DNA of 64,000 nt from Nitrospina sp. (lineage in GTDB: Bacteria; Nitrospinota; Nitrospinia; Nitrospinales; VA-1). Below, in pieces: positions 43,233 through 49,060 of this stretch. The notes beneath the pieces were generated by a model. That model saw nothing but the letters and a program-made list of their open reading frames with translations, was not told the origin of the DNA and did not search any database. Position 1 is the first letter of the stretch; each line of letters begins with the position of its first letter. A program made the translations under genes and the position numbers. The DNA is taken from contig JABHTG010000057.1 in the NCBI GenBank assembly GCA_018697205.1, forward strand, positions 124,001 to 188,000, in the 5' to 3' direction.

Positions 43233-44192
43233 TTGCACGACCAAACAATCTTTTCTTACCAAACACCATCAGGACAAAGAGTAGAAATTCTCAAACAATC
43301 ATTTCCGTCATCTCGAAAACGACCGGTCAAAAAAATTGCTTTTGTTTCAGGAATTCATGGAAATGAATTAGAAGGTATTTACATTTGTCACCTTATCAAC
43401 AAATTCTTAAAAGAATTAAAGAAAGGTAACCCTGAAGCTTTTCTTGGCGAAGTTCATATTTATCCAACAGTTAATCCACAAGCAACTGCTAGCGGAACTC
43501 GCTTGTGGCCCTTTCTTTCAATTGACTTCAATCGCCAGTTTGGAAATTCGACGGGAGATTCCCCAGCAGCTAAATGCGCTGAAGCATTAATAAAAGACCT
43601 AAAGCTCTCTGCTGATATTGTGGTTGATTTTCATGCTAGTAATCTACACCTCAAAGAAACGCCTCAAATTAGAATCACTGAAGGTTTTCATAAAAAACTT
43701 ATTCCTCTTAGTGTTCATTGCAATGTTGATCTTGTATGGGTTCATCCTCTATCCCCTATGTTTAAATCCACATTAGGTTACAACATGAATCAATGCAAAG
43801 TTCCCACGTTGGTCATTGAAACTGGGATCGCCTTACGTATAAATCAAAAATTTGCAAATCGTATTTTTTTAGGCATGGTAAACCTTCTTCATCACTTAGG
43901 AGTCATTGCGACTAACGACCCTCCACCACAAGTTAATCATCCAATAATTGCTCACCCTTCTCAAGTTGTTTCAATTCATTCTGAACATGCAGGGCTATTT
44001 ATTGGACATACTGATATAAAAAAAAATACTACTAAGGGAGAAACACTTGGGGAGATAGTGGACGCAAAAAATGGAAAAACTTTACAGGAAGTAACAGCAA
44101 CTGAAAATGGATTTCTTTTCACTATAAGAGAGCATCCCTTAGTTTACCCAAACTCACTTCTATACAGAATTGCTAAAGATATATTGACATGA
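43233..44192 (+). CDS. Succinylglutamate desuccinylase/aspartoacylase (AstE/AspA) family protein
   Basis: GIHGNELEG, IDFNRQF, VVDFHAS, VIETG; TTG start. Confidence 0.88.
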   Translation: MHDQTIFSYQTPSGQRVEILKQSFPSSRKRPVKKIAFVSGIHGNELEGIYICHLINKFLKELKKGNPEAFLGEVHIYPTVNPQATASGTRLWPFLSIDFNRQFGNSTGDSPAAKCAEALIKDLKLSADIVVDFHASNLHLKETPQIRITEGFHKKLIPLSVHCNVDLVWVHPLSPMFKSTLGYNMNQCKVPTLVIETGIALRINQKFANRIFLGMVNLLHHLGVIATNDPPPQVNHPIIAHPSQVVSIHSEHAGLFIGHTDIKKNTTKGETLGEIVDAKNGKTLQEVTATENGFLFTIREHPLVYPNSLLYRIAKDILT

Positions 44193-45157
44193 AAAAAAAT
44201 ATTCTTTCAATTCGCTCGCCCTTTGGACCTCCTATCGAATTATCACAATTCACTTGGGAAGGAACTGGAATTAAAAATAATATTTCTATTGTTTCTGGAA
44301 TTCAAGGCCATCATATCAACGGAATTTACATTTGCTCACGGCTCATTCGTTTTCTCAACTTAGTAGAGTCTAGAAAAGAATTAGGTTATTATTTAAAAGG
44401 TATAGTAAAAATCATACCTACCGTTAATATTCCCGCTATTGAAGAAGATAAGAGTCTGTGGTCACTCCACGATATGGATATGAATCTTGCTTTCCCGGGA
44501 AATAACCAAGGTGAAGTCATTGAACAAATTGCCGCCTTTGCTTATCAGCATACAAAAAATTCTAAATTTGGACTCATTCTTCAAAGTGCCAATATTCATT
44601 ATGATGATGCACCACAAATTTTTTGCTTAAAACCGGATGGGATTACTAAAGATTTTGCAAGAAGCTTAGGGCCTAAAAATGCACGTGAACCCACTGTTTT
44701 ATCTACCTTTGGACTTTCCCTTTATAGTCAGTGGATAGATCAAATGATGACTTCTGCTATTTTATCTGCAGGAAAACCAAATCACCTAGACATAGCACTT
44801 TGCGAAACTCTACTTAATGGAATAATCAACTGCCTTTTATGGACAGACGTGCTAGGCAATGACTACAAAAAGCCAATAAAATATCACTTAAAGTTCAACA
44901 AACCTAATAAAGAGCAGTTTATAACATCTCATGCAGGTGGTTTTTTTTTACCCACAGTAAAGCTAGGTACAGAAATTAAAAAAGGGGAAAAGATAGGAGC
45001 TATTGTTGACATACACTCGAACAGTACACTCGAAACAGTTTTAGCTGATTCGGATGGGTATTTAGCCACCTTACGCAATCACCCTATAGTTTATCAAAAA
45101 GAAATATTAGCTATTTTGTTAAGGAAATCAGGACTTTCTTTTTGGCCCACGAAGTAA
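44189..45157 (+). CDS. Paralogous AstE/AspA-family protein, predicted catalytically inactive
   Basis: Co-linear with preceding protein but GIHGNE is GIQGHH, FNRQF is MNLAF, DFHAS is ILQSA. Confidence 0.82.
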   Translation: MKKNILSIRSPFGPPIELSQFTWEGTGIKNNISIVSGIQGHHINGIYICSRLIRFLNLVESRKELGYYLKGIVKIIPTVNIPAIEEDKSLWSLHDMDMNLAFPGNNQGEVIEQIAAFAYQHTKNSKFGLILQSANIHYDDAPQIFCLKPDGITKDFARSLGPKNAREPTVLSTFGLSLYSQWIDQMMTSAILSAGKPNHLDIALCETLLNGIINCLLWTDVLGNDYKKPIKYHLKFNKPNKEQFITSHAGGFFLPTVKLGTEIKKGEKIGAIVDIHSNSTLETVLADSDGYLATLRNHPIVYQKEILAILLRKSGLSFWPTK

Positions 45158-45255: not shown

Positions 45256-46005
45256 ATGCACACATTTAACTTATCAAGTCAGCTCATGATAGAACAATCA
45301 ACTGATGGCTACCGTTACTCTATTGAACCGTTTTTATTAGTTCACTTTTCAAAATTATTAACCGGCACCCGCCTTTTAGATGTTGGGGCGGGATGCGGTA
45401 TTATCCCTCTTCTCGTAGCAATGCAAACAAGTATAAAAGAAATCGTAGGAATAGAAATTCAAAAAAGTCTTTATGACATCGCCGTTAACAATATATCAAG
45501 AAACGATTCCTCTGATAGAATAAGACTAATTCATGGTAACTTTATCAATGCAGGCTTAATTTCTACGCTTAACTTATTTGATACAATAATTTCAAATCCA
45601 CCATACCGAAAATTGAATACAGGGCGTATTAACCCTAATCATGAAAAAGCGATAGCGAGGCACGAGATATCCATAGACTTAAATTCACTTCTTTCCAAAA
45701 CAAGCAGTTTGTTAAAATACAAGGGGAAATTTATTATGGCTTATCCACCATTAAGGCTTAGAGAAGTGCAGGAAAGACTCTATTTTTACAAATTATTTCC
45801 CTCAAGACTTCGTTTTATACATAGTTCAAGTGAGGCTGATTCTCGGATATTTCTAATTGAAGCAGTAAAAAACCAGCAAGTAGAATGTATAATCGAACCT
45901 CCTCTATTTGTTTATAATAAAGATGGCTCTTTTACAAAAGAAATGGAAAAAATTTATGCTTCCTTTAATTATTTTAGCCGGTCCCACCACATCAAAGAAA
46001 AGTGA
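45256..46005 (+). CDS. TrmN6-like SAM-dependent methyltransferase
   Basis: LLDVGAGCGIIPLLVAMQ; IISNPPYRKLNTGRINPNHEKAIARHE. Confidence 0.85.
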   Translation: MHTFNLSSQLMIEQSTDGYRYSIEPFLLVHFSKLLTGTRLLDVGAGCGIIPLLVAMQTSIKEIVGIEIQKSLYDIAVNNISRNDSSDRIRLIHGNFINAGLISTLNLFDTIISNPPYRKLNTGRINPNHEKAIARHEISIDLNSLLSKTSSLLKYKGKFIMAYPPLRLREVQERLYFYKLFPSRLRFIHSSSEADSRIFLIEAVKNQQVECIIEPPLFVYNKDGSFTKEMEKIYASFNYFSRSHHIKEK

Positions 46006-49000
46006 TACGGCAATCGAGTTAGCCGAAAAAATTAATTCAGAAATTATTAGTGCTGACTCTATGCAAGTTTATAAATATTTTAATATAGGAACAGCAAAAG
46101 TAACACCTGCGGATAGAGCTAGAGTCCCTCACCACCTAATTGACATTCTAGAACCTGACCAAAGTTTTTCTGCCTTTGACTTTAAATCTAAGGCTTTAAG
46201 GCAAATAAGAAAAATACATAAACAAGGTAAAGTCCCGATAATAACTGGAGGCACTGGACTCTACATTAAAGTCTTATGCGAAAACTATGATTGCGCAGTC
46301 CAAATAAATCCAGAAATAAAAAAACAAGTCAAAGCTGATATCCAATCAAAAGGACTTCCCGAAGTACACAAGGAACTCCAACAAATTGATCCCAATTCTG
46401 CAAAGCGGATTTCCTCTTTAGACACACAACGTATTGAACGTGCCATCTCTGTGTACCGCCAAACAGGTATACCTTTTTCAGATTTCAGCAAAACGCAACC
46501 AAATCCAAATTATGAATTCCCCATTTATACTTTTCTCATAGAACGAGACCGAGAAGAACTTTATACAAGCATCAACCAGCGAGTCGAGAAAATGATAAAT
46601 ATAGGATGGATTGAAGAAGTAAAAGCTATTTTAGCCCAGGGTTTCTCTGAAAAGCTAAAACCTTTTCAAAGTATTGGATACGCACAAATCATAAGGTTTC
46701 TACATGAGAAACAGTCCCTAGAGAAAACCACTGACTTAATCAAGCAAGACACTCGGAATTATGCGAAACGACAGATTACCTGGTTTAAAAAACTTTGCAA
46801 TACCAAAATAATTAAAGCAACTATATCCGATAACCCAGCTTCCATCAGAGACCGATTACTACCTCTGCTTCCAAAGTCATTAATCATAATTGCCTTTTTT
46901 CTTATACTCTCTCTTATTAATCCAGGGAAAACAATTGGAAGTGAGAATAAGGGATATTCTTTTGCTTTGTTACAGTTTCAAAATAAAAATTTTCACCAGG
47001 CCGCCCTTTTATTTCGTTCTATTTATTCTTCAACCCCCAATTCCATAGAGAAAAAAAGAGCCTATTACCTTCTCGCTCATAGTTTAGTTCATACAGGTAA
47101 GTTAAATGAACCAATTGAAATCTTCTTAGCCTCTATCAAAAATTATCCAGAAATAGAAGACTACATTCGATTTCACTTATCAGAGGTATTTTTTCGTTCT
47201 GGGAAAACTAAAGAAGCCTTGGAACAAGTTCACATAATACAACAAAAATTTCCAAAAACTCTATTACTAACTAAAACTAACATTCTATTAGCAAAAATTT
47301 TAGAAAGAAAAAACGAAATCAAAACTGCTCTTAAATTACTTGCCAAAACAGAAAAAAAAATATCAAAGCTTTCCAAATCCTCTGAAGAAAGATTACACCT
47401 GCCGCAAATTATATATCACCAAGGAATTCTAAACAAAAAATCTGGAGAATTTACTAAATCTTATAACCGCTATCGATTTCTCCATATTGCCTTCCCAACA
47501 AACCGATTAACAAAACTTGCAAAAAAAGAAATGAAAAAACTCGCTAACGAATTTTCATTTAATATAGAACCTTTAACACTCGATGAATATGAACAACGAA
47601 TTAAAGCACTCCTCCAAGATGTGCAATACCAACAAGTAGTTAATGAAGTTTCTGAGTTGCTTAAAGAAAAAATTTCGCTTCCAGCTAATTTCTATTTCTA
47701 TTTAGCTAAAGCACAAAAAGGCCTTCGCAATAGAGATCTCTCTATTTTTTCGCTTAGAAAATTTCTACAGCACTATCCAAACCATAAACGAACTCAAGAG
47801 GCTTTATTCAATATTGGGCGAAATCTTTGGAACACTGGATATTATAGTGACGGACTAAAAAACTTTAAAGACTCAATCAATATAAATACTAACCCTGGTC
47901 TAACTAACCAAGCGATTTTTTTTGTTGGGAAAATGCATGAAGAGAAAAAACGCTATACCCAAGCAACTAAATATTACTCAATTTTATCTGATAAATTTAA
48001 TGGAGAATATGCCGAACGTGCTATATGGCAGCTTGGATGGATGAACTATACAACAGGAAATTTCCAAAAATCTTTTGACTACTTTGGTGACAGTATCAAA
48101 AAATATCCAACTGGCCTTTTTGCCGAAAGCAGCATGTTCTGGAGCGCAAAATCAGCTGAAAAATTAAAACACAAGGATCTTTCCCAAAAAATTTTCACAG
48201 ACGTTAATATATTATTTCCTTACACCTACTATGGAATTAGGGCGGAAAACATCATAGCCGACAAGAAGATTTTTCCAACTGCAATCAAAAGTCAAGCGTC
48301 GCCTGATATGACACATAATCTATCAAGTGCTGTGCGCTTTCACTATTATCGAGGAGTTGAGTTATCAGCAACTGGTTTTTTTGAAGAAGCAAGACTTGAA
48401 ATCAAAAAGGTAGAAATTGCCACACGAAAAAACCTGTCCGGAGTAATTTGGCTAACCAAACTTTATAATGATGCTAACGCTTATTCTGACACTCAAAGGA
48501 TTATGCAACTATATAAAAACTATAAAACCAAAATCAGAGAAAAAGAACTTTCTGATAATTTTTGGAAAAACTTTTATCCACTAGCCTATGCAAAAGCTAT
48601 TCACGACAGTTCAAAATTTTTTAATGTGGATCCATACTTCGTGAAAGGGCTTATTCGACAAGAAAGTTTATTTAATGCACAAGTCCAATCTCGTGCTGGA
48701 GCGATTGGATTAATGCAAATTATGCCAGCAACTGGGCGGAACCTATACGCTAATTCAAAAAACAAAGAACCATTCACTACCGAAATATTATTTAACCCTG
48801 AAAAAAATATTCAATTGGGGGTCCAATACATTCACCAACTAAATAAACGTTTTAATAAAAATAAAGCACATATTTTAATTTCATATAACGCCGGCCCTCA
48901 TAATTTAAAAAAATGGTTAAAAAGGTTTAAACATATTAATGACCCTGACGTGTTTATAGAATCTATTCCATATCCCGAAACCAGAAAATACGTTAAAAAA

Positions 49001-49060
49001 GTGCTCAGAAACTACGGGATTTACCAATCTTTATATCCAAAAAATTCTTTAGCTAATTAA
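45956..49060 (+). CDS. miaA: MiaA (tRNA dimethylallyltransferase)-TM-TPR-lytic transglycosylase (SLT) fusion ORF
   Basis: N-terminal half DSMQVYKYFNIGTAKVTPADRARVPHHLIDI, GGTGLYIK (MiaA); hydrophobic SLIIIAFFLILSLI; C-terminal IRQESLFN...GAIGLMQIMPATG...ISYNAGPHNLKKW (SLT); single uninterrupted frame. Track start 45908, ATG at 45956 preferred. Confidence 0.85.
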   Translation: MLPLIILAGPTTSKKSDTAIELAEKINSEIISADSMQVYKYFNIGTAKVTPADRARVPHHLIDILEPDQSFSAFDFKSKALRQIRKIHKQGKVPIITGGTGLYIKVLCENYDCAVQINPEIKKQVKADIQSKGLPEVHKELQQIDPNSAKRISSLDTQRIERAISVYRQTGIPFSDFSKTQPNPNYEFPIYTFLIERDREELYTSINQRVEKMINIGWIEEVKAILAQGFSEKLKPFQSIGYAQIIRFLHEKQSLEKTTDLIKQDTRNYAKRQITWFKKLCNTKIIKATISDNPASIRDRLLPLLPKSLIIIAFFLILSLINPGKTIGSENKGYSFALLQFQNKNFHQAALLFRSIYSSTPNSIEKKRAYYLLAHSLVHTGKLNEPIEIFLASIKNYPEIEDYIRFHLSEVFFRSGKTKEALEQVHIIQQKFPKTLLLTKTNILLAKILERKNEIKTALKLLAKTEKKISKLSKSSEERLHLPQIIYHQGILNKKSGEFTKSYNRYRFLHIAFPTNRLTKLAKKEMKKLANEFSFNIEPLTLDEYEQRIKALLQDVQYQQVVNEVSELLKEKISLPANFYFYLAKAQKGLRNRDLSIFSLRKFLQHYPNHKRTQEALFNIGRNLWNTGYYSDGLKNFKDSININTNPGLTNQAIFFVGKMHEEKKRYTQATKYYSILSDKFNGEYAERAIWQLGWMNYTTGNFQKSFDYFGDSIKKYPTGLFAESSMFWSAKSAEKLKHKDLSQKIFTDVNILFPYTYYGIRAENIIADKKIFPTAIKSQASPDMTHNLSSAVRFHYYRGVELSATGFFEEARLEIKKVEIATRKNLSGVIWLTKLYNDANAYSDTQRIMQLYKNYKTKIREKELSDNFWKNFYPLAYAKAIHDSSKFFNVDPYFVKGLIRQESLFNAQVQSRAGAIGLMQIMPATGRNLYANSKNKEPFTTEILFNPEKNIQLGVQYIHQLNKRFNKNKAHILISYNAGPHNLKKWLKRFKHINDPDVFIESIPYPETRKYVKKVLRNYGIYQSLYPKNSLAN

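Follow-up and report, generated by a model that had tools for sequence, protein, structure and literature searches.

Throughout the order Nitrospinales, the tRNA-modifying enzyme MiaA is encoded in one uninterrupted frame with a TPR-containing lytic transglycosylase of the Slt70 type (SLT), and this MiaA-SLT fusion is a fixed trait of the whole order. We analyzed a 64,000-nucleotide stretch of the Nitrospina sp. contig JABHTG010000057.1 (the window), in which an open frame on the + strand (45908-49060) holds a MiaA start at ATG 45956 and closes with a stop codon ending at 49060. The initial annotation had described this frame as passing without a stop from MiaA through a hydrophobic stretch to TPR repeats and an SLT domain with ESxxN, GLMQ and SYNAGP motifs, and domain searches bear this out. 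The 1034-residue product (45956-49060) comprises a full MiaA, a hydrophobic segment, TPRs and an Slt70-type SLT domain (Table 1). Pfam places IPPT at residues 37-279 (2.7e-83) and SLT at residues 885-993 (2.3e-28; PF01464, 98.5 bits against 21.3), with the TPRs in between, and the NCBIfam model TIGR00174 (miaA) scores 290.3 bits over residues 4-286, against a cut-off of 148.65. In an AlphaFold2 model built from five close sequences (mean pLDDT 54), the usable part is the TPR region alone, where residues 331-650 are helical with pLDDT mostly 64-93.

Table 1. Features of the fusion gene and of the gene upstream, in window coordinates.
Feature	Position	Strand	Basis or remark
Small-domain (MTS) methyltransferase gene, upstream	45256..46005	+	Overlaps fusion start by 50 bases, in another frame
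MiaA domain, residues 1-306	45956..46873	+	TIGR00174 match 4-286 plus native C-terminal helix
MiaA C-terminal helix, residues about 293-306, NPASIRDRLLPLLP	inside 45956..46873	+	
Hydrophobic core, 13 residues 309-321, LIIIAFFLILSLI; putative internal signal-peptide h-region	46880..46918	+	
c-region, residues 322-329, NPGKTIGS; weak signal-peptidase-I-like candidate site (TIG|S or IGS|E)	46919..46942	+	
TPR/helical-solenoid region of lytic transglycosylase, residues 330-880	46943..48595	+	Pfam, NCBIfam, AlphaFold2
SLT catalytic domain, residues 885-993; IRQES, GLMQ, SYNAGP	48608..48934	+	Pfam

The upstream methyltransferase gene probably shares an operon with the fusion. Farther upstream lie two tandem genes of about 320 codons each (43233-44192 and 44189-45157). 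The first encodes a protein matching the AstE/aspartoacylase catalytic domain; the product of the second has a similar layout and no Pfam match, and its GIQGHHING in place of GIHGNELEG suggests that it has lost the zinc ligands.

A protein search of the window's genome and 59 relatives recovered full-length fusions across the genus, family and order, with identities from 73 down to 38%. We also searched for miaA in 77 genomes of the phylum, 64 from the order and 13 from other families. All 58 order genomes with sequence across the junction carry MiaA-SLT in one frame; in the remaining six of the 64, either MiaA was not detected or the locus stops at a contig edge. The 58 fusions cover four families and include three single-contig genomes (G008, G009 and G037), of which G037 has 3,921,641 bases; a closed genome exceeding 3.9 Mbp is reported for cultured strain EB (Ca. 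Nitronauta litoralis; PMC8026999). The initial annotation had proposed looking for the same fusion in relatives, and had named, among the outcomes that would overturn it, a junction broken by a frameshift or stop codon and relatives with two separate genes; within the order, both of these are excluded (58/58 fused). Retention of the same open junction by 58 members is more than chance, and the likelihood that the fusion is a sequencing or assembly artefact is vanishingly small, given its recurrence across four families and in single-contig genomes. The MiaA-SLT fusion was not found outside Nitrospinales among the sister-family genomes of the same phylum that we examined.

The fused MiaA is the sole MiaA of these order genomes, with the exception of G029, which has two differing MiaA-SLT copies (G029:C12:69159-72287 and G029:C39:32686-35811), a case of duplication or contamination in a metagenome-assembled genome. 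At another locus (L051, G035:C6), the MiaA part is split into two overlapping frames near query residues 123-134, distant from the junction, probably by an assembly error. The miaA search found no MiaA of any kind in G023, an order member in 40 contigs that is 92% complete, reflecting either a loss or an assembly gap.

Comparison with the sister families points to the origin of the fusion. Ten of their genomes have a complete MiaA, in each case as a separate ORF of 310-362 aa. In one family (f9, L078-L081), the slt frame directly follows miaA and overlaps its end in another frame; in a second (f7, L056), the miaA stop and the slt start, which are in different frames, overlap in the sequence TAATG; in a third (f8) the two genes are near each other, and in two more (f5 and f6) slt lies elsewhere. 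The unfused SLTs of the sister families have hydrophobic N-termini resembling ordinary signal peptides. On trees of the MiaA part (67 sequences) and the SLT part (60 sequences), both quick trees with long branches flagged, separate and fused forms are divided by a single change each (SH-aLRT 100). Because each tree needs only one change, the fusion arose once, from neighboring genes, and miaA was probably joined with the adjacent slt at the base of Nitrospinales. The ancestor would have had miaA followed by a neighboring gene for a TPR/Slt70-type lytic transglycosylase, and at the join the C-terminal helix of MiaA would have taken the place of the start codon and n-region in the SLT signal peptide.

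The anatomy of the junction is consistent with such an exchange. The native MiaA C-terminal helix (consensus like DTPETLRDKILSLLP) is recognizable in most of the 58 fused sequences, and in all 58 the chain continues straight into the hydrophobic core; the former start codon and basic n-region of the SLT are absent, and in most of them the net charge ahead of the core is no more than about +1. A candidate signal peptidase site of the form [AVSTGILC]-x-A follows the core in 55/58 sequences (42.3 +/- 2.8 in shuffles of the same residues) and AxA in 24/58 (14.3 +/- 2.6 shuffled); because the 58 sequences are related, the shuffle test overstates their independence, which weakens these statistics. 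In other members of the order, the c-region shows clearer xxA or AxA sites than it does in the window. A gene for signal peptidase I is found in the window's genome.

We infer from these features that the SLT is exported to the periplasm by way of the internal signal-peptide-like segment. The fusion would be translated as one chain, with MiaA folding in the cytoplasm, and the hydrophobic core behind it would be taken up by SRP/Sec in an N-in/C-out orientation. Signal peptidase I would most likely cut past the core and free the SLT in the periplasm, leaving MiaA with a short hydrophobic tail that either holds it on the inner membrane or is trimmed off. We consider it probable that the fusion is such a polyprotein, cut into a cytoplasmic, membrane-tailed MiaA and a periplasmic SLT. 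The initial annotation had offered either a permanently anchored inner-membrane protein or cleavage by signal peptidase after translation; we favor the second over the first, because the core is short and a candidate site is retained in nearly all members.

The permanently anchored form would be a bitopic protein left uncut, with MiaA inside and a tethered lytic transglycosylase outside. A single frame with a single hydrophobic segment fits it, as does the weak candidate site of the window (TIGS, with small residues and no alanine) and of several other members of its genus, which have G or S at −1 in place of A. However, the median length of the hydrophobic stretch across the fused sequences is 13-14 residues, typical of signal-peptide cores and short for a stable membrane anchor, and the small residues kept at −3 and −1 in 55/58 would be needless for an anchor. 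We regard the uncut form as rather unlikely. A separate SLT made by internal initiation in the end of miaA, with the long chain as a by-product or a MiaA carrier, seems more doubtful still. Some in-frame ATG, GTG or TTG lies between the TWF motif and the core in 49/58 sequences, and in many family members an ATG stands just after TWFRK, 28 codons ahead of the core. Against this, the other 9/58 have no such codon ahead of the core, the window among them: as the initial annotation had stated, there is no in-frame ATG, GTG or TTG in the window from TWF (residue 277) to the core, and the scanned junction has its first one, a TTG, about 67 codons past residue 271, beyond the core. In-frame CTG, ATA, ATT and ATC codons are present in the window junction, and an SLT start at a non-canonical codon (CTG, ATA or ATT) may be compatible with its sequence. 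With the same detector, a Shine-Dalgarno-like site was found at internal candidate starts in just 2/58 sequences, against 18/54 at MiaA starts, and we rejected an internal start with a Shine-Dalgarno site. Since the MiaA part ends without a stop codon, the fused product would be made anyway, unless translation is interrupted.

Substitution patterns bear on the same alternative. In 88 close pairs, dN/dS is lowest in the SLT domain (0.07) and MiaA (0.11), followed by the TPRs (0.13-0.17), the c-region (0.21), the linker (0.26) and the core (0.28); the junction evolves as coding sequence. Synonymous divergence at the junction (0.49 and 0.45) is within the range of the other regions (0.43-0.54) and thus does not point to a ribosome site embedded there; a hidden site, sought as synonymous-site constraint, was rejected. 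We also observed an A6 run from the Lys-Lys codons after TWF (window 46784-46795, tttaaaaaactt after TW), which is widespread in the order. At residue 279 AAA is over-used (z 2.97), and likewise at Lys columns 151 (z 3.66) and 300 (z 2.71). Slippage or frameshifting that would free MiaA alone was rejected, as the AAA enrichment is equalled elsewhere and the alternate-frame stops are not at conserved positions. That the MiaA part is degenerate and merely a leader for the SLT is very improbable. The window MiaA has intact DSMQVY, GGTGLY and KRQITWF motifs; D34, S35, Q37, R272, Q273, T275, W276 and F277 are invariant across 45 MiaA sequences, and GGTGLY is kept in the fused MiaAs with a few substitutions at its T and second G. 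In favor of degeneration, the window P-loop (45980-46003, residues 9-16) reads GPTTSKKS, with lysine for the second glycine, and departs from GxxxxGK[ST]; this glycine is kept in 41/54 fused MiaAs, while K, N or E stands in its place in the other 13/54, from several lineages that include the window's genus, so that MiaA activity is not certain. Sister-family MiaAs, in the N-termini inspected, retain it. Yet the dN/dS of MiaA is near that of the SLT core, its other motifs are kept, and it is the genomes' only MiaA while MiaB is retained, with a MiaB gene found in the window's genome; this lends only indirect support to the formation of i6A37 in tRNA. The catalytic E903 of the SLT, a family-1 lytic transglycosylase domain, is invariant in the 52/52 sequences that reach that position, and both fused enzymes are presumably active.

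The initial annotation raised a link of tRNA modification with cell-wall remodelling; as a functional coupling it is unsupported so far. The genes were no more than neighbors before they fused. Physical or stoichiometric coupling of export or wall growth to A37 tRNA modification, in which MiaA would stay at the membrane or be freed only upon SLT export, is unlikely; the 1:1 synthesis of MiaA and SLT may have no regulatory meaning. Nitrospinales are the ocean's main nitrite oxidizers, and across this order a cytosolic tRNA enzyme with a housekeeping role is produced solely as the N-terminal portion of a putative exported wall hydrolase. The fusion would be one of the rare examples in nature of an internal signal peptide, probably cleavable, that follows a large folded domain in the cytoplasm. 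It offers a way to test how a chain of this kind is dealt with by SRP/Sec and signal peptidase, and whether these bacteria tie A37 tRNA modification to the membrane or to the growth of the wall. Automatic annotation will label the gene as either MiaA or a transglycosylase.

We found no description of a MiaA fusion with a lytic transglycosylase in the papers searched; our genome comparison covers one phylum. A gene fusion in the same class is the fused cbb3 oxidase of Nitrospina gracilis (PMC3578206; PMC10839748), which differs from MiaA-SLT in joining subunits of one complex, without a soluble enzyme. Relative to stand-alone MiaA (PDB 3d3q, 2zm5, 3crm), the fused MiaA is full-length and shares the motifs except for the P-loop glycine, but it lacks a stop and its C-terminal helix runs into the hydrophobic core. 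The SLT part resembles Slt70-type enzymes (PDB 1qsa, 5ohu, 6fbt) and the NCBIfam family BB0259_flg_lyt in having an SLT domain (ESxxN, GLMQ, YNAG) behind a helical solenoid, but it scores under the cut-off of every named lytic transglycosylase equivalog. Unlike Slt70, its N-terminal helices are TPR-like and unmatched by Slt70 sequence, and its putative signal peptide lies inside a fusion. FbcH of Bradyrhizobium japonicum is a polyprotein of cytochrome b and cytochrome c1 with an internal signal sequence, separated by signal peptidase. As proposed for MiaA-SLT, one bacterial frame holds two proteins, the second exported through an internal signal sequence; the products of FbcH share one complex, whereas MiaA-SLT joins a cytosolic tRNA enzyme to a wall enzyme.
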